Below, in pieces: positions 3,671 to 20,127 of a stretch of DNA of 33,465 bases. A program made the translations under genes and the position numbers. The notes under the pieces are model-generated. The model ran no database searches and was not told the DNA's origin. It saw nothing but the letters and a program-made list of their open reading frames with translations. Source of the stretch: an uncultured Acidobacteriia bacterium. GTDB taxonomy: Bacteria; Acidobacteriota; Terriglobia; Bryobacterales; Bryobacteraceae. Every line of letters starts with the position of its first letter. Position 1 is the first letter of the stretch. Location of the stretch: NCBI GenBank assembly GCA_903875575.1, contig CAIQWJ010000008.1, forward strand, positions 1-33,465, read 5' to 3'.

Positions 3671-4783
3671 ATGAACAACTTTCCCGCAGTTGACCAAATT
3701 CCCCTACCAGCACCGGTCTGGTTACTCAAAGCACTGCACGATCTGACGTTCTCGCTCCATCTCGCCTCCGTCGGATTATTGGTCGGTGGCCTGATCCTCG
3801 CGCTCGCCTTCGCCCTCCTCGGCCGCATGCAGAATGCGCCGGTCATGGTCCAGGCCTCCGGCATGTTGATCCGCCGCCTCCCCACCGTCATGGCCTTCGT
3901 CGTCAACCTCGGCGTCCCCCCGCTGCTCTTCGCCCAGGTTCTTTACGGACGCGCCATCTACACCAGCAGCGTCCTGATTGGCGCTTACTGGATCGCCGTG
4001 ATCTTCCTGTTGATGGGCAGCTACTACGGTCTCTACGTCTCCGCCGGCTTCGCCGCCCGCAAGAAGACGTGGTTCGCCCCCGGCTTCGCCTCGCTGCTCC
4101 TCATCCTGACTGTCGCCTTCATCTACAGCAACAACATGACCCTGATGGTCCGGCCCCAATCCTGGAGCGCCATGTACATGCACAGCCCCGGCGGACTCCA
4201 ACTCAACACATCCGATCCCACCCTCACCCCCCGCTGGCTGTTCTTCATGATCGGCTCCTTCCCCGCCGCCGGTGCCGCCCTCATGCTGATGGCACTCCGC
4301 TCCGGCCTTGCCGATGAACTCTCCGCCTTCCTCACGCGCGCCGGCGGCCTCGTTCTCGCCGTGACCATCGTTCTCCAGGCGCTCCTGGCCCAGATGACTC
4401 TCGGCGCCCAGCCCGGCAACATCGCAGCCACCGTCATGAATGATGCCCTCTATCACACTTTCTTCCTGGGTTGGCTCGCCACCGCCGCACTCCTCGCCGT
4501 TCTTGGCATCCTCGCCTTTGTCGGCAAAAGGGCCAACTCCCTGTTCGGCATCCTGGCCGCTGTCGTGGCCTTCGTCAATGTCGTCTCCACCACCATGGTT
4601 CGCGACGGCATCCGCGATGTCACCCTCCGCGCCGCCGGCTTTGACGTCTGGGACCGTCAGGTCGCCGCCAACTGGTCTGTCATTGGTTTGTTTCTGGTGT
4701 TACTGGTCACTGCCATCGTCGTCATCGCCTGGCTGGTCAGCGTAGCAGGAAAGGCAAAACGAGTGGAGGAAAACTATGCCTGA
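3671..4783 (+). CDS. CydA-like polytopic membrane protein, first gene of a Rieske/cytochrome b operon
   Basis: A 370-residue integral membrane protein with about eight or nine hydrophobic helices. An in-frame GTG at 3653 would add six residues; neither start has a clear SD. It carries two His in helix 1 (LHDLTFSLH, H23 and H30). Read side by side with the N-terminal part of the protein at 6389-7969 it shows the same order of helices and matching blocks (LHDLTFSLHLASVG with FHVMISHFAVGGG; NNMTLMVRPQSW with GILTFMMTPGQTW). It is therefore probably a paralogous CydA-like subunit without the cytochrome c extension. It overlaps the Rieske gene by 8 nt, so the two are surely co-translated. The assignment to the bd-oxidase superfamily is by eye and needs an HMM search. 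Confidence 0.65.
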   Translation: MNNFPAVDQIPLPAPVWLLKALHDLTFSLHLASVGLLVGGLILALAFALLGRMQNAPVMVQASGMLIRRLPTVMAFVVNLGVPPLLFAQVLYGRAIYTSSVLIGAYWIAVIFLLMGSYYGLYVSAGFAARKKTWFAPGFASLLLILTVAFIYSNNMTLMVRPQSWSAMYMHSPGGLQLNTSDPTLTPRWLFFMIGSFPAAGAALMLMALRSGLADELSAFLTRAGGLVLAVTIVLQALLAQMTLGAQPGNIAATVMNDALYHTFFLGWLATAALLAVLGILAFVGKRANSLFGILAAVVAFVNVVSTTMVRDGIRDVTLRAAGFDVWDRQVAANWSVIGLFLVLLVTAIVVIAWLVSVAGKAKRVEENYA

Positions 4784-5273
4784 TGAAATTGTGCCCGGCA
4801 TTGCAAACGACGCGGCTGCAATCGATACCCCCGACGGCAGTCGCCGTACCCTGCTACAGATGGGCATCACCCTGGCCGGTGCTTGTTACGCCGGTGCCAT
4901 CGGCTACCCCGTCTATCGCTATCTGGCCACACCCGCGCGCCGCGCCGAACTCGCCGAAGGCGAAATCACCACCGTCACCATTCCGGCCGCCGGCCTCCCC
5001 GGCCCCGGCACCGCGACAATCTTCCTCTTCGGTTCCCGGCCCACCCTTCTGATCCACCACAAAGACGACAAGTACGTCGCGTTCGACGCCGTCTGCACCC
5101 ACCTCGGCTGCACCGTCGCCTACCAGCCCGATAACAATCGTCTCTTCTGCCCGTGCCACGGCGGCGTCTACGACATCAACACCGGTGCCGTCACCGGCGG
5201 CCCTCCACCCAAGGGCCTCAAATCCTACAAGCTGGAGGTCAAAGGCGATCATGTCGTCGTTTCCAAAGCCTGA
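4776..5273 (+). CDS. Rieske 2Fe-2S protein (bc/b6f type), TAT-exported
   Basis: A 165-residue protein. A twin-arginine signal (SRRTLLQMG, residues 22-30) leads into one membrane helix (about 30-50), which usually stays as an anchor. The cluster-binding motifs are CTHLGC (Cys107, His109) and CPCHGG (Cys125, His128). Cys112 and Cys127 form the disulfide typical of high-potential Rieske proteins. The final GPPPKGLKSY matches the proline loop. The ATG at 4776 has a strong SD (GGAGG) and overlaps the previous stop. The protein would carry electrons from quinol oxidised at cytochrome b to the next haem, here most likely the dihaem domain encoded at 6389-7969, since no c1 gene is present. Confidence 0.93.
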   Translation: MPDEIVPGIANDAAAIDTPDGSRRTLLQMGITLAGACYAGAIGYPVYRYLATPARRAELAEGEITTVTIPAAGLPGPGTATIFLFGSRPTLLIHHKDDKYVAFDAVCTHLGCTVAYQPDNNRLFCPCHGGVYDINTGAVTGGPPPKGLKSYKLEVKGDHVVVSKA

Positions 5274-6363
5274 AATTCCAGGCAAATCATCCCTCGTCGA
5301 TGGCCTGTACAACTGGGCCGATGAACGCCTCGGCCTGACCGACGTCGTCGCCCTCGCCACCCACAAGCAGGTCCCCCAGCACAAGCATTCCTTCTGGTAC
5401 TACTGGGGCGGCATCTCTCTCCTCTGCTTTATCGTGCAGCTTCTGACCGGCGTTCTTCTCCTGGTCTATTACCGCGCAGGCAAAGACGCCTACGAATCCG
5501 TCCGCCAGATCACTTACGATGTCGATTTCGGCTGGCTTATCCGTTCCGCCCATTCCTGGTCGGCCAACATCATGGTGTTCGCCGTCTTCGTCCACATGTT
5601 CTCGGTCTACTTCATGAAGGCCTACAAAAAGCCCCGTGAATTTGGCTGGTGGACCGGCCTCGGCCTCCTCGGCGTCGTCATGATCTTCGGCTTCAGCGGC
5701 TATCTGCTGCCCATGGACGAGCTCTCTTACTTCGCCACTAAAGTCGGACTCCAACTCCCCAGCATGATGCCCGGCGTCGGGACCATCGTCAATAACGTCG
5801 TCCGCGGCGGCCCGTCGGTCGGCGAAAACACTGTACAGCGCTTCTTCGCGCTGCATACGGTCGTCCTGCCCCTGCTCTTCATGCCACTCCTCGGCCTGCA
5901 TCTCGCTCTGGTCCAGAAGCATGGCAATGCACTGCCTCCCGGCGAAGCCGCCAAACCTGCTTCACAGCGCCGCAGCGTCCCCTTCTTCCCCAACTTCTTC
6001 GCCATGGATCTCGCCATGTGGCTGATCGCCCTCAACGTGATCACCATCCTGGCCACCCTCTTCCCGTGGGATCTCGGCAAGCCAGCCGACCCCCTCGCCT
6101 CCGCCCCCGTCGGCATCCACCCCGAGTGGTACTTCATGTCGCAGTTTCAGTTGCTCAAAGGGATGGGCCTGGTTCTTCCCGGCATGATGGGCGAAGTCGC
6201 AGGCATGGGCCTGTTCACAGTCGTCCTGATCTTCTGGGCCTTAATCCCGCTGTTCGATAACGAAACTGTCCTGGGCAAACGCGCCCGCATGGCCACCTGG
6301 TTCGGCCTCATGGTCGTCACCGGCATGCTCGCTTTAACAGTCTGGGGGTACGCAGCCCTATGA
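5251..6363 (+). CDS. Cytochrome b, fused b6/subunit IV type
   Basis: A 370-residue membrane protein starting at the ATG at 5251, inside the end of the Rieske gene (23-nt overlap). The four haem ligands are visible: His101 (SAHSWSAN), His115 (FVHMF), His202 (ALHTV) and His217 (GLHLAL). The 15-residue spacing of the second pair is that of b6f and Gram-positive complexes, not mitochondrial-type bc1 (14). The quinol-site motif is PEWY (291-294). The C-terminal part supplies the subunit IV helices. It oxidises (mena)quinol at the Qo site and recycles electrons through the two b haems. Confidence 0.93.
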   Translation: MSSFPKPEIPGKSSLVDGLYNWADERLGLTDVVALATHKQVPQHKHSFWYYWGGISLLCFIVQLLTGVLLLVYYRAGKDAYESVRQITYDVDFGWLIRSAHSWSANIMVFAVFVHMFSVYFMKAYKKPREFGWWTGLGLLGVVMIFGFSGYLLPMDELSYFATKVGLQLPSMMPGVGTIVNNVVRGGPSVGENTVQRFFALHTVVLPLLFMPLLGLHLALVQKHGNALPPGEAAKPASQRRSVPFFPNFFAMDLAMWLIALNVITILATLFPWDLGKPADPLASAPVGIHPEWYFMSQFQLLKGMGLVLPGMMGEVAGMGLFTVVLIFWALIPLFDNETVLGKRARMATWFGLMVVTGMLALTVWGYAAL

Positions 6364-6388
6364 GCGTAGCGAATGGAGGAACAACAAA

Positions 6389-7969
6389 GTGAACTACCCC
6401 ATCTGGGACGTCCCCTTCCTCGGTAGCGGCTGGATCGTCGGCATCATCGCCATCTTTCACGTGATGATCTCCCACTTCGCCGTCGGCGGAGGCTTTTACC
6501 TGATTCTGGCGGAACAAAAAGCCCGCCGCGAAAACCGCGCGGACTGGCTCGCCGTCATCCGCGAACACTCCCGTTTTTTCATGGTTCTCACCATGGTCTT
6601 TGGCGCCGTCTCCGGCGTCGGCATCTGGTTCTCCATCGGCCTCGCCAGTCCGCAGAGCACCAGCGCGCTCATCCACAACTTCGTCTTCGGCTGGGCCATG
6701 GAATGGTGCTTCTTCATCGTCGAAATCGCAGCCATCGCCGTTTACTACGCCACCTGGGACCGCGTGTCCCCCGAAACCCATATGCGGGTCGGCTGGCTCT
6801 ACGCCATCACGTCCTTCGGAACCCTGGTCATCATCAACGGCATCCTCACCTTCATGATGACGCCGGGTCAAACCTGGCTGACCGTCGCCGGCACCGGTCG
6901 CGAATCGTCCGAGTTCTGGGCGGCGTTCTTCAACCCAACCTACTGGCCAAGCCTCGTCCTTCGCACCCTCACCTGCCTTGCTCTGGCCGGTGTCTGGGCC
7001 CTCGTAACCGCCAGCCGCATCGACGGTTTCGAAAAACCGGCCCTCAAATCCGAGGTCATCCGCTGGTCCGCCAAATGGCTGCTCCCATCGTTCCTCCTGG
7101 TTCCCCCCGCCCTCGCCTGGTATCTCTTCTCAATCCCTGAGAACAGCCGCCAATTACTGCAACTCGGCGTAGGCACCATCGGCTCCGGCCTCTTCACGCA
7201 GGTCGCCCGCGCCGCCCTCGTCACCATCATGTCGTCGGCCACCATCCTCGCCGTCGTCTACTTCCTCGCCTGGAAGAATCCGAAAGATTTCGGCCTCGGC
7301 CACGCCGTCGCTGTAGTCTTCCTCGCCCTCGCCGCCACCGGTGCCACCGAACACGGGCGCGAAATGATGCGCAAACCGTTTTCCATCAGCCAGTACATGT
7401 ACTCCAACGGGCTGCACAAAGCGGAAATCTCCCACATCAACCAGGCTGGCTTCACCACAAACAGCCTCTGGGCAGGCAACAACGTCGGCGAAGCGATGTT
7501 CCGCGGCCAATGCATGAATTGCCACACTCTCGATGGCTACCGCGCCATCCGGCAACTTCTCAACGGCCGGGATCGCAGTTCCATCACGAAGCTGCTCGAC
7601 TTGCTCCATGACGCCCCGGCCAACTCGCCCTACAAGCACTACATGCCGCCCCTCGCCGGCACCCCCGATGAAATCAAGGCGCTCGGCAACTACCTGGGCG
7701 ATCTCATCGGCACCTCCAAAGTCGACCCCGCCACGGCTGGCAAGGCCATCTACGAAGCCAACGCCTGCAACGCCTGCCACGGCGACGGTGGCACCGGTGG
7801 CCCACTCGCTCCGGCGCTCACCGGCATCGGCGGCCGTCTGCCGGAAGACAAACTGACTGACTTCCTCAAGAAGCCCTCGGACAAAGCAATCGCCGGCGGT
7901 ATGCCGGCACCCAAACTGTCCGACTCCGAAATGAAGGCTCTCGTAACCTATCTGGACTCGCTGAAGTAG
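6389..7969 (+). CDS. CydA-like membrane protein fused to a dihaem cytochrome c
   Basis: A 526-residue protein with a GTG start and a good SD (GGAGGA, 8 nt). Residues 1-320 are about eight helices resembling cytochrome bd subunit I. His24 (FHVMISHF) sits where CydA has its haem b595 ligand His19. Glu105 and Glu112 and the TWDRV block match CydA Glu99/Glu107 and GWDRL. EHGRE...KPF (321-331) resembles the EYGRQPW signature. The position matching the b558 ligand His186 appears to be Arg192, and the quinol-binding Q-loop is not evident. The C-terminal part has two c-haem motifs, CMNCH (375-379) and CNACH (460-464), with candidate axial Met419 and Met506. It could receive electrons from the Rieske protein and pass them to O2, NO or a soluble partner; the reaction is inferred. 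Confidence 0.75.
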   Translation: MNYPIWDVPFLGSGWIVGIIAIFHVMISHFAVGGGFYLILAEQKARRENRADWLAVIREHSRFFMVLTMVFGAVSGVGIWFSIGLASPQSTSALIHNFVFGWAMEWCFFIVEIAAIAVYYATWDRVSPETHMRVGWLYAITSFGTLVIINGILTFMMTPGQTWLTVAGTGRESSEFWAAFFNPTYWPSLVLRTLTCLALAGVWALVTASRIDGFEKPALKSEVIRWSAKWLLPSFLLVPPALAWYLFSIPENSRQLLQLGVGTIGSGLFTQVARAALVTIMSSATILAVVYFLAWKNPKDFGLGHAVAVVFLALAATGATEHGREMMRKPFSISQYMYSNGLHKAEISHINQAGFTTNSLWAGNNVGEAMFRGQCMNCHTLDGYRAIRQLLNGRDRSSITKLLDLLHDAPANSPYKHYMPPLAGTPDEIKALGNYLGDLIGTSKVDPATAGKAIYEANACNACHGDGGTGGPLAPALTGIGGRLPEDKLTDFLKKPSDKAIAGGMPAPKLSDSEMKALVTYLDSLK

Positions 7970-8084: not shown

Positions 8085-9413
8085 ATGCCACGTTCGTTCC
8101 CCATCTCCGCCCTCATCGCGTTTGCCTGCGCCGCGCCGCTTCTCGCCCAACAAACACCCCCCGAACCCCAAACCTGGAATCTCTTCTACCAGGCCACCTC
8201 CATCGGCCAGTACCACGGGACTTTCACATCCCCCTACTCCGGCCCCTTCAGCCTCCAGGCCTACCCCGAGCGCGACGTTTCCCTCACCACCACGCTCTTT
8301 CTCGGCCTGCGCATCTCCAAACTCACCACTTTCTATTTCGACCCCGAAATCGCCGGCGGCAAAGGCTTCAGCGGCGTCAACGGCCTCGGCAACTCCTCCA
8401 ACGGTGAACTCCCCCGCGTCGCTACCGCCACCCCCAAACCCTACGTCGCCCGCCTCTACCTACAGCACGATTTCAACCTCGGCGGCGGTACCGAATCCGT
8501 CGAGAGCGACGCCAACCAACTCGCCGGCACCCGCCCCCTCCGCCGCTACACCGTCACCGCCGGTCGCTTCACCCTGACAGACTTCTTTGACGACAACCGC
8601 TACACCCACGACGCCCGCACCCAGTTCATCGGTTGGGCCGTCATGTTCAACGGTGCCTGGGACTACCCGGCTGACGTTCGCGGCTACACCTGGGGCTGGG
8701 TACATGATCTGCACCTCAAAAACTGGTCCCTCCGCTACGCCAGCGCCGCCATGCCCCGCGAAGCCAACGGCCTTCGCTTCGATCGCCGCCTCTTCGTCAA
8801 CCGTGGCGACGTGTTCGAAGCAGAATACCGCTGGCAATCCTCCGCCCACCCCGGCACCGTGCGACTCCTCACCTACCGCAACCACGCCAACGCAGGCACC
8901 TACGGGGACGCTATCGCGCAAGCCCGCAAAACCAGCGACACGCCCGACGTCACCCTCGCCCGCCGCAACGGCACCGTGAAGTATGGCTTCGGGATCAGTG
9001 CCGATCAGGAACTGACAAAGGATCTCGGCGTCTTCGCCCGCCTGGGCTGGAACGATGGCAAGACCGAAAGTTTCGCCTTCACAGCGGTGGATCGCCTCGC
9101 GACAGGCGGCGTCTCCCTAACCGGCACCCGCTGGCACAGGCCGCACGACACCGTCGCGGCGGAGTTCACGACGAGCGGCATCTCCGGCGTCCACGCCAGC
9201 TATCTCGCCCTCGGCGGCCACGATTTCGAAATTGGCGACGGCCGCCTCACTTACGCCCCGGAATACGTGGCGGAAATGTATTACAACGCGAAACTCTTCC
9301 CCGGCTTCTACGCGACGTTAGACCTCCAGCACGACGCCAACCCCGCCTACAACCAGGCCCGCGGCCCCGTCTGGATCCCCTCCCTCCGCCTCCACATGGA
9401 ATTCGGCCACTAA
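8085..9413 (+). CDS. OprB-like carbohydrate-selective outer-membrane porin
   Basis: A 442-residue protein with a clear Sec signal peptide (MPRSFPISALIAFACAAPLLAQ, cleavage near 21-22). The rest alternates polar and aromatic residues as in a beta-barrel (TWNLFYQATSIGQYHG, FAEMYYNAKL-type segments near the end). It ends in an aromatic/His tail (LHMEFGH), near the pattern used for outer-membrane insertion. The C-terminal block with YAPEYVAEMYYN, FYATLDLQHDANPAYN and GPVWIPSLRLH is typical of OprB-family porins, which import sugars and related solutes. It follows the respiratory operon in the same direction but is separated by two inverted repeats, so it is probably regulated separately. Confidence 0.75.
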   Translation: MPRSFPISALIAFACAAPLLAQQTPPEPQTWNLFYQATSIGQYHGTFTSPYSGPFSLQAYPERDVSLTTTLFLGLRISKLTTFYFDPEIAGGKGFSGVNGLGNSSNGELPRVATATPKPYVARLYLQHDFNLGGGTESVESDANQLAGTRPLRRYTVTAGRFTLTDFFDDNRYTHDARTQFIGWAVMFNGAWDYPADVRGYTWGWVHDLHLKNWSLRYASAAMPREANGLRFDRRLFVNRGDVFEAEYRWQSSAHPGTVRLLTYRNHANAGTYGDAIAQARKTSDTPDVTLARRNGTVKYGFGISADQELTKDLGVFARLGWNDGKTESFAFTAVDRLATGGVSLTGTRWHRPHDTVAAEFTTSGISGVHASYLALGGHDFEIGDGRLTYAPEYVAEMYYNAKLFPGFYATLDLQHDANPAYNQARGPVWIPSLRLHMEFGH

Positions 9414-9504: not shown

Positions 9505-9954
9505 TCAGCCGATCAGTCGTTCGATCAGTTTCGCATCAGCGCCCCTGACCGCGCGCCATGGAATGCCGCCGTCAAAAGTGGCCAGCCTTCCACCCTTGCG
9601 AAACGCGATTCCCGCCAGATAAGCGTCGGTGATTTGCCTCGCACCAGTAAGCACGCCGAGATCAAACAACGAGTGATCGCAAACCGAATCATCCAGCCCC
9701 CAGAAACGATGCGAACCGGAAAAAGCCGTCTTGAGTTGAGCCAGCGAGTTCGCGGCCATCGCAGGACTCAATCGGAGATTCGGGTAACTGACGGAGGAAA
9801 CGACGCGAACAAACCCGTTCTCCGTTATCGCGGTCGTAGCCCATCCATCCACCACCGCGACAGATCGAAACCAGTTGACCGCTGCCCCATGATGAGCATG
9901 CGCGGAATCCAGTAGACTCACCAGGACGTTGACGTCCAGCAAGACGCTACTCAT
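9505..9954 (-). CDS. vapC: VapC-like PIN-domain ribonuclease toxin
   Basis: A 149-residue PIN-domain protein with the full acidic set: Asp7 (LLDVNVLV), Glu45 (TENGFVRV), Asp110 (QITDAYLAG) and Asp128 (LATFDGG). These residues bind Mg2+ for RNA cleavage. The ENGFVRV variant marks a well-known VapC subgroup. The start overlaps the 3' end of the antitoxin gene by 8 nt, which fits translational coupling. Unlike the toxins at the right end of this window, it appears intact. Confidence 0.88.
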   Translation of the reverse strand: MSSVLLDVNVLVSLLDSAHAHHGAAVNWFRSVAVVDGWATTAITENGFVRVVSSVSYPNLRLSPAMAANSLAQLKTAFSGSHRFWGLDDSVCDHSLFDLGVLTGARQITDAYLAGIAFRKGGRLATFDGGIPWRAVRGADAKLIERLIG

Positions 9955-10180
9955 ACTCTTCTGCCAGGTTGCGAACCAATTCGCTCGTCACAGTCACCGC
10001 GCCCGGACCGTGAACCCACACCGGAATTCCATCGCGAATCTCCACAACCGGGGCCGCTTCAGGCTGCAGACCACGGCGCACCAGATCGGAAACTGTCCGG
10101 CCAATCGCCTGATTCTGTAGCCGTGCGAGATCCTTCACCGCAGACATCACATCATCATCAATCTCAAGTGTTGTTCGCAT
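9947..10180 (-). CDS. vapB: VapB-like ribbon-helix-helix antitoxin
   Basis: A 77-residue protein. MRTTLEIDDDVMSAVKDLA is the standard ribbon-helix-helix N-terminus that binds the operon promoter. The linker (QNQAIGRTVSDLVRRGL) and the C-terminal acidic tail (SELVRNLAEEYE) should wrap the toxin. The frame is open 13 codons further upstream, but the ATG at 10180 begins the conserved domain. No strong SD precedes it. It should be autoregulated together with the toxin gene. Confidence 0.85.
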   Translation of the reverse strand: MRTTLEIDDDVMSAVKDLARLQNQAIGRTVSDLVRRGLQPEAAPVVEIRDGIPVWVHGPGAVTVTSELVRNLAEEYE

Positions 10181-10221
10181 ATTGACATCATAACATCTTG
10201 ATGCGCGAACACAAGGCAAGA

Positions 10222-13512: not shown

Positions 13513-14850
13513 TTAAAGCTCATCCTCCGCCACATGCGGCTTGAATTCCCACACCGCGATAATCGGGAACAGTTTTGAGAACAGCAGGTACAACACCACC
13601 ATCCCCGCAAACGTCGCGCAGGTGATGGCAATTTCCACCCAGCTCGGCAGATACGACATCGAACTCGCCGCCGGCAGCCTCGTGTTGCTCAGCGTCGGCA
13701 CCACAATGATGTAGCGCTCCAGAAACATCCCGAGCAGAATCCCGAACGACGCAATCACGCCGGTCGTGATACTCCGCAGCTTGCGAATGCCAAGCAGAAC
13801 AAACGGCACCACGAAATTCACGAAAACCATCAGCCAGAACAGAAATGCGAAACGAGTCCGCGTGCGCGCGCCGAACACCACCATCTCGCTCGGATCGTTC
13901 CCGTACCACGCAGTAATATGTTCCGCCAGCGTGAAGTAAAGCCAGAGCACGCTCATCAGCAACAGCAGCTTCGCCAGATTGTCGAAGTGGTGCTTCGTGA
14001 GATACAGTTCCAGACCCATCAGCTTGCGGATCAGAGCCATCACGATCATCAGTCCGGCCAGCCCGCTGAAGATCGCGCCCACAACAAAATACGGCCCGAA
14101 AATCGTGCTGTGCCACATCGGCGCAATCGCCATCGCGAAATCCCACGCCACAATCGTATGCACCGAAACCGCGACGGCCAGGATGATGCCAGCCATCAGC
14201 TTCATCGCGCGTTCCAGCGCGTGCCATTCGGTATCGCTGCCGGTCCATCCCAGCGAAAGCGCCTTATACAATTTACGTCGCCACGGCGTATTGTGCTCGG
14301 CCAACTGCGCCATATCCGGAATCAGCGGCAGATACAGGAAGATCACGCTGCCCGTCACGTAAGCGCAGATCGCCGTCAGATCCCAAAGCAGCGGCGACCG
14401 GAAATTCGGCCACAGTAAACGCGAATTCGGATACGGCATCAGCCAGTAAAAGCGCCACGCTCTGCCCAGGTGGATGATGGGAAACAACCCGCCAATCATC
14501 AGCGCAAAAACCGTGATCGCTTCCGCCGCGCGCGTGATCGGTTTGCGCCAGCCCGCGTCTGTCAAACGGAGGATCGCGGAAATCAACGTGCCCGCATGCG
14601 AAATGCCGATCCAGAAAACAAAGTCGACAATGTAAAAACCCCAGAACACCGGCCGATGCAGCCCCGTGACGCCCATGCCATAACGAAGCTGCACGCTCCA
14701 CGCGTACGCCCCGAACAGAATCACCAACAGCGGCAGCAGAATCGCAATGAAATATTTCTTCGTCAGCCCGGAGAGCGGACGAAACAAATCTTCCCGAATC
14801 TTGCCGTATGGCAAAAGCTCAGGAGGCGTGACTTTGACCCTGCCCGGCAT
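13513..14850 (-). CDS. actC: ActC, NrfD-like quinol-binding membrane subunit
   Basis: A 445-residue polytopic protein with about ten helices, the NrfD/PsrC double four-helix-bundle type. Characteristic blocks are TGLHRPVFWGFYIVDFVFWIG (first helices), IIHLGRAWRFYWLMPYPNSR, TEWHALERAMKLMAGII and EMVVFGARTRTRFAFLF. In alternative complex III this subunit binds the quinol on the periplasmic side and passes electrons to the Fe-S clusters of ActB. The ATG overlaps the stop of the Fe-S gene (TGATG). Confidence 0.92.
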   Translation of the reverse strand: MPGRVKVTPPELLPYGKIREDLFRPLSGLTKKYFIAILLPLLVILFGAYAWSVQLRYGMGVTGLHRPVFWGFYIVDFVFWIGISHAGTLISAILRLTDAGWRKPITRAAEAITVFALMIGGLFPIIHLGRAWRFYWLMPYPNSRLLWPNFRSPLLWDLTAICAYVTGSVIFLYLPLIPDMAQLAEHNTPWRRKLYKALSLGWTGSDTEWHALERAMKLMAGIILAVAVSVHTIVAWDFAMAIAPMWHSTIFGPYFVVGAIFSGLAGLMIVMALIRKLMGLELYLTKHHFDNLAKLLLLMSVLWLYFTLAEHITAWYGNDPSEMVVFGARTRTRFAFLFWLMVFVNFVVPFVLLGIRKLRSITTGVIASFGILLGMFLERYIIVVPTLSNTRLPAASSMSYLPSWVEIAITCATFAGMVVLYLLFSKLFPIIAVWEFKPHVAEDEL

Positions 14851-15536
14851 CAGCGCCCACGCTCCAGATAAAATACCTTCGGCTTCGTCCCCAGCTCTTC
14901 GAGCAAACGCGTGGCCCGGCTGCTCTCCGCCATTCGCGACACTTTGCTCTCGGGATCGTTCAAATCGCCAAACACCATCGCTTCAGCGGGACAACCCTGC
15001 ACGCAAGCCGGCTGGATATCGCCATCCGCCAATTCCTGTCCGGACGCTGCCGATTCATCCTTGCCGCGCTTAATACGCTGGATGCAGAACGTGCACTTCT
15101 CCATCACGCCCGCCATGCGCACGGCCACATCCGGGTTGTGCTGCAGTTGCATCGGTTCCGGCCAGACCGGATCGAACCAGTTGAAGTAACGCACCGTGTA
15201 CGGGCAGTTATTCGCGCAATAGAAAGTCCCCACGCAGCGGTTGTAAACCTGAACGTTGAGCCCTTCGGGATTGTGATAGGTTGCGTACGTCGGGCAAACC
15301 GGTTCGCAGGGCGCTTCGTCGCACTGCTGGCACAGCACCGGCATGTACTTCACCTTCACATCCGGGAAATCGCCTTCGTAGTAGCGGTCCACGCGAAGCC
15401 AGTGCGTCGTGCGGCCCGTCGCCGCCTGCTCCGGCGTGGAAATCGGAATGTTGTTCTCGGCATGGCAGGCCACCACGCAGGCTTCACAGCCCGTGCAGCG
15501 GTCCAGATCGATTGCCATTCCCCAGCGGTGTGCCAT
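14850..15536 (-). CDS. actB2: ActB Fe-S part, separate polyferredoxin subunit of ACIII
   Basis: A 228-residue ferredoxin-like protein with the four Cys groups of the dicluster family: CTGCEACVVAC, CQQCDEAPCEPVC, CVGTFYCANNCPYTVRYFNW, and CTFCIQRI with CVQGCPAEAM. In most alternative complex III loci this is the C-terminal half of a single ActB of about 1,000 residues; here it is its own gene 4 nt after the first half. It has no signal peptide, so it must be exported with its partner, as in other molybdoenzyme-type complexes. It wires ActC-bound quinol to the haem subunits. Confidence 0.88.
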   Translation of the reverse strand: MAHRWGMAIDLDRCTGCEACVVACHAENNIPISTPEQAATGRTTHWLRVDRYYEGDFPDVKVKYMPVLCQQCDEAPCEPVCPTYATYHNPEGLNVQVYNRCVGTFYCANNCPYTVRYFNWFDPVWPEPMQLQHNPDVAVRMAGVMEKCTFCIQRIKRGKDESAASGQELADGDIQPACVQGCPAEAMVFGDLNDPESKVSRMAESSRATRLLEELGTKPKVFYLERGR

Positions 15537-15540
15537 AGTT

Positions 15541-17676
15541 TTACCTGTGCGCGCCTCTGTTCTCGCTCTTCGTCGCGGAGAACTGAATCAGCTTGCCGTC
15601 GTCGCTTACACGCGTCAACTTCACGCGCGTCGCGCCGGTCGCCATCGCGCCCGTCGACGCCTCTGCCGATGGACCCAGAATTGAAAGCGCATTGACCCCG
15701 TAGCCCGATCCATAGCGGCTGAAATGCGTGTGTCCGCCGCCGATCCCCATACTCACCACGCCCGGAATCGCCGCCGGATGAATGAACGCCGCCGCTTCAA
15801 TCGCGCCGTGAGCCGATTCTATCCGCACCAGGTCGCCTTCCGAAATGCCAAGCTTCGCGGCAGTCGCGTTATCGATCTCCACCGGCAAGCCCCAGATCGC
15901 GCTGGAAACCGGATCCGGCAATTCCTGCAGCCAGGGCAGATGCGAGCTGCTGCCATCGTGGAACTGCACCGAAAGATACGGCTGGAAGTAGAGCGGGAAC
16001 TGCCCTGCGTCACCTTCAAATTTCGCAACGCTCAACGCCGCATCCTTACCCGGCTTCGCGGCAACCGGCTTCGCATCGGGAACCAGCCAAATACCGCCCT
16101 CGCGAGTCACTTCCGCGTAGGTGGCATCGCCCTTGAGCAGCGGCTTCACCAGGTCTGCCGCCGTGGGTGCCGTATAGGAGTCGCCCAGCTTACCCGAAAT
16201 GTCCGCCAGCGTTTTCTCAACAGCCTGCGTCTCGTAAAGCGGTTCCACGAAGGGTTCCGCCACGGCCATCGCTGTCCTGTCTGAAACCAGCGCCGACACC
16301 GCGACCGTCGATTCAAGCGCGTGATGATCGGGCAGAATGAAGTCTGCATACGCCGCCGAATCATCCACCACGGGTGCAAAACTCACCACCATCTCGGCCT
16401 TATTCAGCGCATCCAGTACGCCGGAAGACTTCGGTAAGAGATACGCGGGGTTCGTGCCATCAATCAGGATCACCTGAGCATTCGCCAGCCGTCCAGCTAA
16501 CGCGGAACTCTCCACGCTGACCGCGTTCGCCGCCGGAGCCAGCACGCCGCCCGGCTTGCCCACATTGCCCAGCATCAGATTCAGATAGTGTGACGCGATC
16601 ACGGCATCCACCGAATTCGTGTGCACCGCCGAAGCCCCGCCAATAACCAGTGGCGCATGCGACGCGCCGAACTCCAGAATGATCGACCGCGTGCGCTTCT
16701 CATCCTGACCGCAGGCCTTCAAATTCGCAGCCACATCAGCCGTGCGGAACGCGGTCGCAACCGCAGCAGGCAGACCAGCGACAATCGGAGCCAGCTTTGC
16801 ATCGATCAGAATTCTTGCCACCGCAGCGATGAACTGCGGTTCCGAACCCGGCGTCAGCGGCAACCAACGATCCGCCGATGTCGCCGTCGTCGAGAATCGC
16901 GACTCCGCCTGGAACAACGTCCCACGCATGCCGACGCGACCCTGCCGGAAATGCCCAAACTGCCGGGCGTAATAGACCGGCGACTCCCAGCCACCCAGAA
17001 AATCCGCCCCTATACCAAGCACGTGCGTCGCGTTAGCCACATCGTAAACCGGCAGCCCGCTCCAGCCCAACGCGACCTCCGCAGCCTTGCGCTCCACCGC
17101 AAAATCCGTAAGCGAACAAACCGACGCCGCCGGTGCTTTGATCGCCTTGAGGAAACCCTGCACTGCAGCTGAACGGCTGCCCGCATTGGGACCAGTGAGA
17201 AACACGATGCGCGAAGGATCTGCCGTGCGGATCTTGTCCGCCACTCCAGCCACGGCCTCGGCCCAGGGCACTGCCGCGAACGAAGCCTTGCCCCGATCGC
17301 CATTGCGCTTCACCGCACCGCGCAGGCGGTCCGGATGATACAAAGCCTGCACCACAGCCTGACCACGCGCGCACAACCGACCGCCGCTAATCGGATCCAG
17401 CGGATTTCCTTCAATCTTCTTGACCGCTGCAACACGCTGTCGAACCTGTTCACCCTTGACTTCGATGACGCGCTCGGCGCCCATCACTCGGACCAGCGTG
17501 CCGCAACCTGCTGAACATTCCGTGCAGACCGCCGGATACCAGCGTTCCTCGCCGATGGGGATATTGTGTTCGGGGACAAGCAGTGGAATCAACGCGTCGG
17601 TGTTACTGCCGCAACCGGTTGCGACCGCACCCGCCGTGCTGGCACCGAGGATCTTGAAGAAGCTACGCCGTTCCAT
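15541..17676 (-). CDS. actB1: ActB molybdopterin-oxidoreductase-like part of ACIII
   Basis: A 711-residue TAT substrate: MERRSFFKILGASTAGAV is a twin-arginine signal and ATGCG is lipobox-like. The 4Fe-4S motif CTECSAGC ... LCARGQ follows (near residues 50-105). The body resembles the molybdopterin dinucleotide fold (FLTGPNAGSRSAAVQGF, VLGIGADFLGGWESP, IWGLPVEIDNATAAKLGI). In studied ACIII complexes this domain has lost the molybdenum cofactor and is structural; whether that holds here cannot be seen. The ATG at 17676 begins the TAT signal; the longer frame enters the repeat array. The Fe-S half is a separate gene. Confidence 0.9.
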   Translation of the reverse strand: MERRSFFKILGASTAGAVATGCGSNTDALIPLLVPEHNIPIGEERWYPAVCTECSAGCGTLVRVMGAERVIEVKGEQVRQRVAAVKKIEGNPLDPISGGRLCARGQAVVQALYHPDRLRGAVKRNGDRGKASFAAVPWAEAVAGVADKIRTADPSRIVFLTGPNAGSRSAAVQGFLKAIKAPAASVCSLTDFAVERKAAEVALGWSGLPVYDVANATHVLGIGADFLGGWESPVYYARQFGHFRQGRVGMRGTLFQAESRFSTTATSADRWLPLTPGSEPQFIAAVARILIDAKLAPIVAGLPAAVATAFRTADVAANLKACGQDEKRTRSIILEFGASHAPLVIGGASAVHTNSVDAVIASHYLNLMLGNVGKPGGVLAPAANAVSVESSALAGRLANAQVILIDGTNPAYLLPKSSGVLDALNKAEMVVSFAPVVDDSAAYADFILPDHHALESTVAVSALVSDRTAMAVAEPFVEPLYETQAVEKTLADISGKLGDSYTAPTAADLVKPLLKGDATYAEVTREGGIWLVPDAKPVAAKPGKDAALSVAKFEGDAGQFPLYFQPYLSVQFHDGSSSHLPWLQELPDPVSSAIWGLPVEIDNATAAKLGISEGDLVRIESAHGAIEAAAFIHPAAIPGVVSMGIGGGHTHFSRYGSGYGVNALSILGPSAEASTGAMATGATRVKLTRVSDDGKLIQFSATKSENRGAHR

Positions 17677-17678
17677 GC

Positions 17679-18224
17679 TTAGCGCACCCCCGCCAGTAAT
17701 TCCATCCGAACCGCGACTGTAAGGAGCGGCACCCAAACCTTCAGCCCGACCGCAAAAACCCGCACTACCGCAAAAACCTTGCGTGCCGTGACCGTAAGGG
17801 AGCGGTACGCGAAACCTGGCACCACGCTATCACTCGCGCCACGCACCAACTCGGCCTGACGCACGACCGCCAAACCGAACACCGCAGCATCACTCGCGCC
17901 GCGCGCCAATTCCGCCAGGAGCACCGCATAACACCGCACGACCGCTAAACCCATCCGAACCGCGACTGCAAGGAGCGGCACCCAAACCTCCAGCCCAACC
18001 CCAAAACCCCGCGCCGCAGCATCGCTCTCGCCGCCCGCCGGCTCCGTCAATCGCACCGACGCCAAACCCCGACCTACCGCAAAGCCCTTACGAGCCGTGA
18101 CCGTAAGGGAGCGGCACTCAAAACCCCAGTCCGCAGCATCACTCACACCGCGCGCCGCCAAACCCCACGCCGCCGCAGCGCCGCCACTCTGAGCCCGCCC
18201 CGAAGCCCGTCCTAGTAATGACAT
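17679..18224 (-). CDS. Open frame through the repeat array between actA and actB (uncertain)
   Basis: The minus strand is open for 181 codons from an ATG at 18224, inside the end of actA, to a TAA 2 nt before the actB ATG. The peptide would be built of degenerate repeats: SLTVTARKGFAV / SLTVTARKVFAV, VWVPLLAVAVRM / VWVPLLTVAVRM, and ELARGASDAAVFG-like units. The fit between the neighbouring genes is exact enough to suggest translation coupling. However, the frame could be open only because the repeat is GC-rich and happens to lack stops on this strand. No known domain, signal or SD is seen. Treat as a repeat first and a gene second. Confidence 0.25.
   Translation of the reverse strand: MSLLGRASGRAQSGGAAAAWGLAARGVSDAADWGFECRSLTVTARKGFAVGRGLASVRLTEPAGGESDAAARGFGVGLEVWVPLLAVAVRMGLAVVRCYAVLLAELARGASDAAVFGLAVVRQAELVRGASDSVVPGFAYRSLTVTARKVFAVVRVFAVGLKVWVPLLTVAVRMELLAGVR
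17700..18160. repeat. Degenerate interspersed repeat array splitting the act operon
   Basis: At least three motif families recur. (1) CCATCCGAACCGCGACTG followed by AAGGAGCGGCACCCAAAC, at 17702 and 17951. (2) GCCGTGACCGTAAGGGAGCGG, at 17785 and 18094, a close relative of the first core. (3) GCAGCATCACTCGCGCC-like units, with cores at 17829, 17889, 18021 and 18138. Distances are 249 bp for family 1, 309 bp for family 2, and 60, 132 and 117 bp for family 3; every one is a multiple of three. A copy of family 1 is also at 330-361. The array accounts for nearly all of the 535 bp between actA and actB. Confidence 0.8.
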
Positions 18225-18751
18225 GTAGCGCAATCCTGCGAGGCCCCTTTCTGACGGTGGCAGGTCAGGCAAGTGCCCATGTTGTGGTTCACCAGCTTTT
18301 GCGCCGTATCCGCCTGCGTCATATCGCCGTGACAGGTCGCGCACTCCACCTTCGCCCGGACATGGGGAGCGTGGTTAAACTTCACCAGAGCCTGCTTTTC
18401 AAACCCGTAAACCCGCTGCCATGGAATCTCACGTCCCTTGGCCGCATACTCCGCGATCTTCTTGACTTCGGGCTTGTCGGTGCCGAACGTCGCGTGGCAA
18501 AGCATGCACTTCGCCACCGACGGGATGGTAGCGGCTGGACCAATATCCGCCATACTGTGGCAATCAATACACTGGAGCCCCATCGCAATGTGTTTCTTAT
18601 GCGAATAGGCGATCGGCTGGTCCGCCGCGGAGAGTGACAAAGCACCCGTCAGGACCAGTAAAAACGCGAGGGCGCGTGCGGCTGACGCATGAATAGCGCA
18701 GGGACGCGGCAGGCGACCTCGAATGAATTTGTACACGCCGGAATCAGACAC
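18212..18751 (-). CDS. actA: Pentahaem cytochrome c subunit ActA of alternative complex III
   Basis: A 179-residue exported protein with one hydrophobic segment near residues 26-42 (ALAFLLVLTGALSLSAA). Five c-haem motifs follow: CIDCH, CMLCH, CATCH, CLTCH and a final CATCH just before the stop. Several extra His (HKKH, NHAPH, NHN) can be second ligands, as in cytochrome c7/class III proteins. Five haems is the ActA number. The start codon is a GTG at 18751 with no clear SD. It is the first gene of the operon, behind the promoter at 18844-18872, and is separated from actB by the repeat array. Confidence 0.88.
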   Translation of the reverse strand: MSDSGVYKFIRGRLPRPCAIHASAARALAFLLVLTGALSLSAADQPIAYSHKKHIAMGLQCIDCHSMADIGPAATIPSVAKCMLCHATFGTDKPEVKKIAEYAAKGREIPWQRVYGFEKQALVKFNHAPHVRAKVECATCHGDMTQADTAQKLVNHNMGTCLTCHRQKGASQDCATCHY

Positions 18752-19003: not shown

Positions 19004-20044
19004 TTACGGCTTCAGCGTGGCCACGTAAGCCACAACATTCAGCATGTCGTCCTGGCTCATTTTGTCCACAACAGGCTTCATCAGACCGGTCGCGAAGCCC
19101 TTCCGCGTACCTTGCTGCATGTCGTACATCTGGCGCATCATGTAGCTGGGCGAACGGCCCGCAATCGTCGGAGCCGGGCCCACGCCCTTCAGCTCCGGGC
19201 CGTGGCAAAGTGCGCATTGCCCGGATTTCGCCAGCGCTTCGCCCTTCTTCACGGCTCCCACCGGCACGTAAGCGATGAAGCTCGAATGTGGGTTGCGATA
19301 CGTTTCCGTCATTTCCGCGCTCACCGGCACTTCGATGATCCGGTTATCCAGCGGCTCCGTCTCGTTACCATCCAGAGCCAGGAACAGGCCCACATTGATG
19401 CGGGTCTTCGGCGCAGTGGTGGATTCCTGCACCTTGATCCACTGTTTGAACTGGATCTGCGCATAATACTCAGCCGAGGCCTTCATTTCTTCCTCAGTCA
19501 TCGCCTTCGCAATCGACGCCATGGCACCCGTGTTTGCCTTGCGGGTATCCGCGCTCTTACGGTTTCCTGCGGCAAAATCCTTCAGTTGCTGGATGAAATA
19601 CTCCGCCGGGAAGCCGTTCACGCCGGCGTTTTCCGCGCGTCCCTGGCCGTTCGGATAGTGGCAGAGCGCGCAGGCGCGAATCGCCGGCGTACGTCCCTTG
19701 GCCACGATCTCGGGCATCGCCGGGTGCTCATTCGGAAACCAGTCCGCCGGGCCAAAACCGTCGTTCACCTGGGTACGCGTGAATTCCAGCGTGCTCCCTT
19801 CAAGCTTCAGCATTGTTGTGTCCGGAGCACGGCCGGGACCACCACCACGCCCTGAACCGCCACGGCCACCGCCACCGCCGGAACCGCCCCGACCGCCGCC
19901 CGGACCGCCAAAGCCGCCACCACCGCCCGCCGGTGCCGAAGACAGACCGGTCGTAAATCCATATGCCCAGGCGGGTGGATCAGCCGCAACAGCGGACCAC
20001 GCCCCCGCGATCAGGAAAGTCAGAACAAATAACGAACGTTTCAT
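19004..20044 (-). CDS. Dihaem cytochrome c with a glycine-rich linker
   Basis: A 346-residue exported protein. A signal peptide (MKRSLFVLTFLIAGAWSAVAA) is followed by a low-complexity Gly-rich stretch at residues 40-72. Two cytochrome c domains come next, with CALCH at 125-129 and CALCH at 277-281. Each is followed by typical class I helices (EYFIQQLKDFAAGNRKS; YMMRQMYDMQQGTRKG) and candidate Met ligands (GAMASIAKAM; GLMKPVVDKM). The pair resembles c4/c553-type electron carriers. The ATG at 20044 has an SD (GGAG, 9 nt) and begins the signal; the open extension upstream is not used. It has its own terminator but lies next to the act operon, so it is a plausible electron acceptor of that complex. 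Confidence 0.85.
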   Translation of the reverse strand: MKRSLFVLTFLIAGAWSAVAADPPAWAYGFTTGLSSAPAGGGGGFGGPGGGRGGSGGGGGRGGSGRGGGPGRAPDTTMLKLEGSTLEFTRTQVNDGFGPADWFPNEHPAMPEIVAKGRTPAIRACALCHYPNGQGRAENAGVNGFPAEYFIQQLKDFAAGNRKSADTRKANTGAMASIAKAMTEEEMKASAEYYAQIQFKQWIKVQESTTAPKTRINVGLFLALDGNETEPLDNRIIEVPVSAEMTETYRNPHSSFIAYVPVGAVKKGEALAKSGQCALCHGPELKGVGPAPTIAGRSPSYMMRQMYDMQQGTRKGFATGLMKPVVDKMSQDDMLNVVAYVATLKP

Positions 20045-20127
20045 ACCGTGAATTCTCCAGTTTGGCCGACTTGCTCGCGCCTCGCGCACAATGAATCGGG
20101 ATATCGGCGGGTGCCCGACCGCCCCTA

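Follow-up and report, generated by a model that had tools for sequence, protein, structure and literature searches.

The contig CAIQWJ010000008.1 of an uncultured Acidobacteriia bacterium (positions 1 to 33,465; hereafter the window, meaning this whole stretch of 33,465 nucleotides) belongs to a 5.98-Mb assembly and carries, at positions 3671–7969 of the forward strand, four tightly packed genes encoding a CydA-like membrane protein (P1), a Rieske [2Fe-2S] protein, a cytochrome b and a second CydA-like protein bearing c-type haems (P4). We propose that the four products probably form one membrane complex, in which electrons would pass from quinol through the Rieske/cytochrome b half to a c haem of P4, and from there to a bd-type dihaem site at which O2 is reduced. 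Whether such a 'bc-bd' quinol:O2 reductase also represents a previously uncharacterized class of respiratory complex, handed down in several bacterial phyla as a set of four genes and derived from a Rieske/cytochrome b complex whose c-type cytochrome was replaced by a CydA-c protein, is in our judgment an evenly balanced question.

The P1 gene (3671–4783), encoding a 370-residue membrane protein with a predicted CydA fold and no c haem, which we regard as a CydA΄-like partner subunit, shares 8 bases with the Rieske gene (4776–5273), which in turn shares 23 bases with the cytochrome b gene (5251–6363). A gap of 25 bases follows, and GGAGG stands ahead of the P4 gene (6389–7969). A Pfam search of the window proteins gave no match for P1. 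The second protein matched Rieske, and it contains an RR pair in its N-terminal region together with conserved cluster ligands; the third, a single-chain cytochrome b of the b6 type, matched Cytochrome_B and Cytochrom_B_C; and P4 matched Cyt_bd_oxida_I (61.5 bits, compared with a cut-off of 26.2) in addition to cytochrome c domains. Neither cytochrome c1 nor CydB is encoded within the four-gene cluster. An initial annotation of this stretch had described the same gene content, including two c haems on the last protein, and the window confirms that description.

We scanned genome contigs with a profile built from the P4 alignment, which returned 526 relatives, and analyzed the best 80 by similarity to the window P4. 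All four genes were located on one strand at 72 of the 80 loci, and their order was P1, Rieske, cytochrome b and P4 in 72/72. The remaining eight loci retained Rieske and cytochrome b (three loci) or cytochrome b only (five loci), and in each of the eight the contig ends inside the operon. The initial annotation had treated the four genes as one self-contained unit, and the recurrence of their order agrees with this view. According to the depositor labels, the loci represent eight phylum-level groups (Acidobacteria, Verrucomicrobia, Hydrogenedentota, Sumerlaeia, Omnitrophota, Planctomycetota, Armatimonadetes and Chlorobi, the last comprising Thermochlorobacter and Chloroherpetonaceae) as well as unlabelled bacteria; judged by P4, the window is closest to L047 (labelled uncultured Acidobacteriia) and L048 (labelled Bryobacterales). 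Most of the loci come from metagenome-assembled genomes. The four genes are also present in the culture-collection strain Bryocella elongata DSM 22489 (L121), which makes the proposed complex open to experimental test. Across 73 operons, the pairwise distances of the four proteins were correlated at r = 0.80–0.87, values that are inflated by relatedness alone.

In E. coli CydA, residues H19, E99, E107 and E445 belong to the dihaem active site, and H186 and M393 are the ligands of haem b558. We compared 81 operon-linked P4 proteins (the 80 loci and the window), 15 P4 proteins from stand-alone pairs and 16 canonical CydA proteins (E. coli CydA from NC_000913 and 15 from member genomes). His24, Glu105, Glu112, Glu325 and Arg328 of P4, which correspond to E. 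coli H19, E99, E107, E445 and R448 (the correspondence in the E445 region depends on a short motif), were identical in 81/81 operon-linked proteins and present in 16/16 canonical CydA proteins. Each was also found in 15/15 stand-alone P4 proteins, save for the equivalent of His24 (14/15, with one gap). At the column of the b558 ligand H186, canonical CydA proteins contained His in 16/16 cases, whereas Arg was found in 81/81 operon-linked and 15/15 stand-alone P4 proteins. The column of the other ligand, M393, contained mostly Gly or Ser, and no Met in the window P4, but gaps in this part of the alignment make the column less certain. The five conserved residues and the lost b558 ligand are in keeping with the bd-like site that the initial annotation had proposed.

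The CydA-like domain of P4 spans about residues 1–345 and contains eight long helices in a structure model; with ~345 residues, compared with 522 in E. coli CydA, it has no room for the Q-loop. A c-type haem domain follows the eighth long helix in the model (Cys375-x2-Cys378-His379 and Met419), and these four residues were identical in 81/81 sequences. Because the N-terminus of CydA is on the periplasmic side and eight long helices precede the c domain in the model, this domain should be periplasmic, on the side of the membrane on which the Rieske head operates. Residues W80, H96, W102, Y119, N150, W163, E321 and R324 of P4 were likewise identical in 81/81 sequences and are mostly unlike those of canonical CydA; they could belong to a new electron path or to the surroundings of Arg192.

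The number of c haems in P4 was not constant. A single CXXCH motif was found in 78 of the 81 operon-linked proteins, and two motifs in the window, L047 and L048, where the added domain of the window protein contains Cys460-x2-Cys463-His464. In a FastTree phylogeny, these two-haem forms nest inside the one-haem forms; a further locus of the same genus (L014), which was left out of that tree, also has two c haems. A single c haem is therefore the rule in operon-linked P4 and the second haem a local addition, and we rejected the idea that two c haems define the complex. The dihaem domain, which the initial annotation had taken to replace c1, is accordingly not the conserved feature. Among the 15 stand-alone P4 proteins, two CXXCH motifs were found in 12, three in 2 and one in 1.

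P1 is by fold nearer to CydA chains than to CydB chains. Its His30, which aligns with His19 of E. coli CydA, was invariant in 58/58 alignment rows, and equivalents of E99 and E107 were absent from P1 in the alignment with CydA. The earlier description of a CydA-like pair thus stands insofar as both proteins are predicted to adopt the CydA fold; however, it should not be taken to mean two active sites, since P1 lacks the E99 and E107 equivalents. We also considered whether the two membrane proteins might be NrfD-like or an unrelated transporter. Neither the NrfD profile (PF03916) nor the nearest-fold comparison pointed in that direction, and the CydA fold modelled for both proteins, together with the CydA profile match of P4, places them in the bd superfamily, as had been annotated.

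We found that the P4 and cytochrome b lineages of the operon occur together. In a set of 396 genomes from the phylum, the top 11 matches to P4 had E values of at most 1.3e-128 (the next was 5.1e-106), and the top 11 matches to the window cytochrome b had E values of at most 1.6e-123 with 54–100% identity (the next was 5.7e-109); both sets came from the same 11 genomes, and cytochrome b adjoins P4 in all ten of the top P4 genomes besides the window. The other P4 matches over at least 340 residues showed 29–51% identity, and the clade itself reaches down to 47%, so that identity alone does not separate the clade.

The next-nearest cytochrome b loci (L200–L218; 19 loci obtained from the 21 matches that followed) belong to Rieske/cytochrome b operons of the same phylum that have the same Rieske–cytochrome b order and a multihaem c-type cytochrome. 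A Rieske gene and a same-strand gene with CXXCH were present in 19/19. The gene after cytochrome b bears 8 to 11 CXXCH motifs in 18 of these loci (two cut by the locus end), and L218 contains two genes with 4 and 6 motifs instead. P1 or a full P4 was found in 0/19; a small c protein of L214 did match P4. Since all 19 have c-type genes in the corresponding place, P4 occupies the position that c-type cytochromes take in the related operons examined, which is in keeping with the replacement of c1 suggested in the initial annotation. No separate cytochrome c1, cytochrome f or other c-type subunit was found inside the operons at the 80 loci. The gene composition and its conservation, the residues of the bd site, the change of His186 to Arg, the terminal c haem and the c-type slot are all read from sequence; the slot of P4, its retained bd residues, the lost b558 His and the recurring gene order are as predicted if P4 replaced c1 and feeds a bd-like site.

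The CydA pair is not confined to this setting. Short loci containing distant P4 relatives (L028–L046, n = 19) included P1 in 18 cases, and Rieske or cytochrome b in none; in wider stretches of 14–15 kb (L175–L186, n = 12), P4 and P1 were adjacent in 12/12, and neither Rieske nor cytochrome b was found at E 1e-5 (0/12). The CydA pair can therefore form a unit of its own. In a FastTree phylogeny of core columns from 81 operon-linked, 15 stand-alone and 16 canonical proteins, the operon-linked P4 clade had a support of 0.89, the stand-alone clade 0.89 and their join 0.80; the first of these is a clade of the sample, since similarity to the window was the criterion by which its 80 loci were selected.

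The Rieske/cytochrome b half retains the residues of a bc/b6f complex, namely the cluster ligands, four haem b His residues and the Qo PEWY motif. In the Rieske protein, Cys107, His109, Cys112, Cys125, Cys127 and His128 were conserved in 76/76 sequences. Gly130 was also found in 76/76 and Tyr132 in 74/76; we take position 130 to be the site at which Ser raises the potential in high-potential Rieske proteins. The presence of Gly instead of Ser beside the cluster does not support the high-potential type assigned in the initial annotation, and that part of it was abandoned. Among cytochrome b sequences with a residue at the respective position, the haem ligands were conserved throughout (His101, 78/78; His115, 78/78; His202, 79/79; His217, 80/80), and PEWY (residues 291–294) was present in 81/81. 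The second His pair is His202-x14-His217, presumably the b6 spacing of 14 residues. Cys59, at what we assume to be the haem c_i position of b6f, was present in just 8/78 members, including the window, and a haem c_i of the b6f type was thus ruled out as a family feature.

On the basis of these observations, the proposed complex would operate as follows. (Mena)quinol would be oxidized at the PEWY site of the Rieske/cytochrome b half in a Q-cycle, in which one electron is recycled via the two b haems and the other passes to the Rieske cluster. The cluster would hand its high-potential electron to the c haem tethered to P4 instead of to cytochrome c1, and this haem would deliver it to the bd-type two-haem site of the same polypeptide, where O2 would be reduced to water. 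P1, without the full ligand set, would hold the structural place of CydB or CydA΄. The quinol-facing haem b558 of an ordinary bd oxidase would be without purpose in such a P4, and the His ligand of that haem has in fact been lost. The proposal thus supposes that the four proteins physically assemble, that electrons move directly from Rieske to P4, that the haem sites are occupied and that O2 is the substrate.

Several points weigh against this proposal. For no member are we aware of a measured activity, a spectrum or an isolated complex. The counts over the best 80 of 526 relatives hold for the near relatives of the window and not for the whole family, and the unit is patchy, P1 being found in 7 of 41 genomes close to the window, a set that includes the window genome. 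Moreover, other oxidases are common: in 50 member genomes, covering 50 of the 80 loci, a COX1-family protein (a family that includes nitric oxide (NO) reductases) was found in 46 and a canonical CydA of full length (E < 1e-100) in 15, in addition to two canonical CydA fragments in G437, perhaps a broken copy. COX1 was not found in G445, G451, G462 and G477, of which only G451 has a canonical CydA; the other three, with neither enzyme found, are metagenome-assembled genomes that may be incomplete. No genome, therefore, depends for certain on the proposed complex; most members appear to have another O2 route, mostly with its own complex III substitute, and the four-gene complex would not be their only oxidase.

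The frequency of COX1 also gives weight to the idea that the operon encodes a complex III only, in which P4 is a membrane-anchored c1 that passes electrons to a soluble cytochrome c and on to a haem-copper oxidase, with its CydA part serving as a scaffold. The position of P4 in a c-cytochrome slot, the second c haem gained by the near relatives of the window, and the finding that cytochrome b, present in 50/50 member genomes, is represented in 16 of them solely by that of the operon are all consistent with this idea. However, a scaffold would not need His24, Glu105, Glu112, Glu325 and Arg328 to be kept in 81/81 sequences, and a like CydA pair exists with no Rieske or cytochrome b nearby in 12/12 stretches. 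Furthermore, an NrfD-family protein was found in 46/50 genomes, and, judged by eye, 37 of the 46 COX1-bearing genomes had a COX1 and an NrfD-family gene on one contig no more than about 7 kb apart, the arrangement of clusters of alternative complex III (ACIII) and oxidase. The four-gene complex is therefore mostly not needed to feed that oxidase, which weakens the idea, and we consider it unlikely. The complex might instead assemble as proposed but reduce another substrate at its bd-like site, such as NO or peroxide, and act as a detoxifying or signalling device. Conservation of haem ligands fixes the site and not the substrate, and oxidases are already at hand in most members; yet superfamily members whose activity is known to us, such as E. 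coli bd and archaeal CydAA΄, the latter reportedly examined by Murali et al. in 2021, reduce O2, and no gene family was found beside the operon in more than 8/80 loci, not all recurring families having been identified. We regard this alternative as quite improbable. Still less probable, in our view, is that the operon yields two separate enzymes, a bc complex and a bd-superfamily cytochrome c oxidase, joined by a diffusible cytochrome c. The P4–P1 pairs without nearby Rieske/cytochrome b would fit such a division, as would a 2017 genome note on Chloracidobacterium, which itemizes two bc complexes and 'a bd-cytochrome c' separately (PMC5629043); we would guess that the latter is a P4. However, the bc half would then have no c1 of its own, the operons were found to contain no additional cytochrome c gene, and both lineages occur in the same 11 of 396 genomes. 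The single bc-bd complex is thus the reading that we prefer.

The window and its genome contain further genes related to respiration. In the genome, no canonical CydA was found, five COX1-family genes scored above the cut-off and one weak match below it, and a 766-residue frame on contig C36 looks like an NO reductase. An NrfD gene lies near one COX1. A second operon with Rieske and split cytochrome b genes (L138, 3803–7755, contig C20) includes a 695-residue protein with eight CXXCH motifs. In the window, consecutive genes for NrfD (PF03916), a 4Fe-4S protein, a molybdopterin oxidoreductase and a five-CXXCH cytochrome (13513–18751, reverse strand) resemble an ACIII or a Mo-type quinone complex, and are followed by a gene for a two-CXXCH cytochrome c (19004–20089). 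Directly downstream of the four-gene operon lies an OprB-family porin gene (8085–9413, forward strand), followed at 9505–10219 (reverse strand) by two small genes that, judged from their translations only, resemble a VapC/PIN-type toxin and an antitoxin.

Some operons were interrupted by additional open reading frames. A gene that looks like a short-chain dehydrogenase lies between Rieske and cytochrome b in L082 (4899–5663), L089 (4627–5391) and L124 (2321–3085), which are labelled Acidobacteriaceae or Terracidiphilus; the four genes remain together despite the insert. Seven similar small frames (about 115–180 residues) lie between operon genes in six loci (L078, L089, L097, L102, L107, where there are two, and L120), and resemble the four-helix-bundle proteins known from intervening sequences. 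CXXCH was absent from all 10 same-strand frames of at least 90 residues found inside the operons at the 80 loci.

To our knowledge, electron transport chains that end in O2 either oxidize quinol directly, as in bd and similar oxidases, or lead from a bc complex or ACIII to a haem-copper oxidase. If the proposal is true, a bc complex that ends in a bd-family site would constitute a distinct respiratory wiring: the charge moved by the Q-cycle would add to the electrogenic bd step, so that more energy would be conserved per electron than by cytochrome bd alone, and a quinol-independent branch of the bd superfamily would gain a concrete electron donor. A bd-like end of the chain has already been proposed for Nitrospira (PMC6606698). 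The four-gene unit was not found described in the literature searched, and, as most subscription papers lay outside the search, we do not claim its absence from print; as far as that literature goes, known modules are combined here in a wiring not found described.

The closest known relatives share some features of the unit and lack others. P4 resembles CydA of cytochrome bd (PF01654) in its family profile, fold and dihaem-site residues, but differs in the Arg at H186, the ~345-residue domain without room for a Q-loop, the lack of CydB and the c haem after helix 8; with the b558 ligand absent and no CydB encoded, it is not part of a canonical quinol-oxidizing CydAB. Murali et al. reportedly described in 2021 the c-haem or quinol-independent branches OR-C and OR-N of the bd superfamily. 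The unit resembles these branches in the lost quinol site, two CydA-family paralogues and cytochrome c as the likely donor, and P4 shares with OR-C the C-terminal c haem on a CydA-like protein; in contrast to these branches, the paralogue genes here lie on either side of a Rieske/cytochrome b pair and are fixed to it. OR-N proteins are believed to take electrons from cytochrome c (PMC10839748), and bd-like proteins without quinol-binding residues occur in Nitrospina (PMC3578206). In Nitrospirales, OR-N5-type CydAA΄ is encoded directly downstream of ACIII genes (PMC12342949), which likewise pairs a quinol-oxidizing complex III substitute with a bd-like reductase; that system has ACIII, whereas the four-gene unit has Rieske/cytochrome b. 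For Nitrospira moscoviensis, gene clustering and expression led to the proposal that complex III and bd-like oxidases may form a III–IV supercomplex (PMC6606698), but the expressed region there is broad and encodes several separate cytochromes c, in contrast to a compact four-gene operon in which the c haem is fused to the CydA-like subunit. A tested precedent for direct wiring between a bc complex and an oxidase is the obligate bcc-aa3 supercomplex of actinobacteria, in which the bc half is connected to the oxidase via a tethered c domain, with no free cytochrome c (PMC8361435). In bcc-aa3, the oxidase is of the haem-copper type and the c haems are carried by QcrC, while in the four-gene unit the c haem is located on the oxidase subunit.

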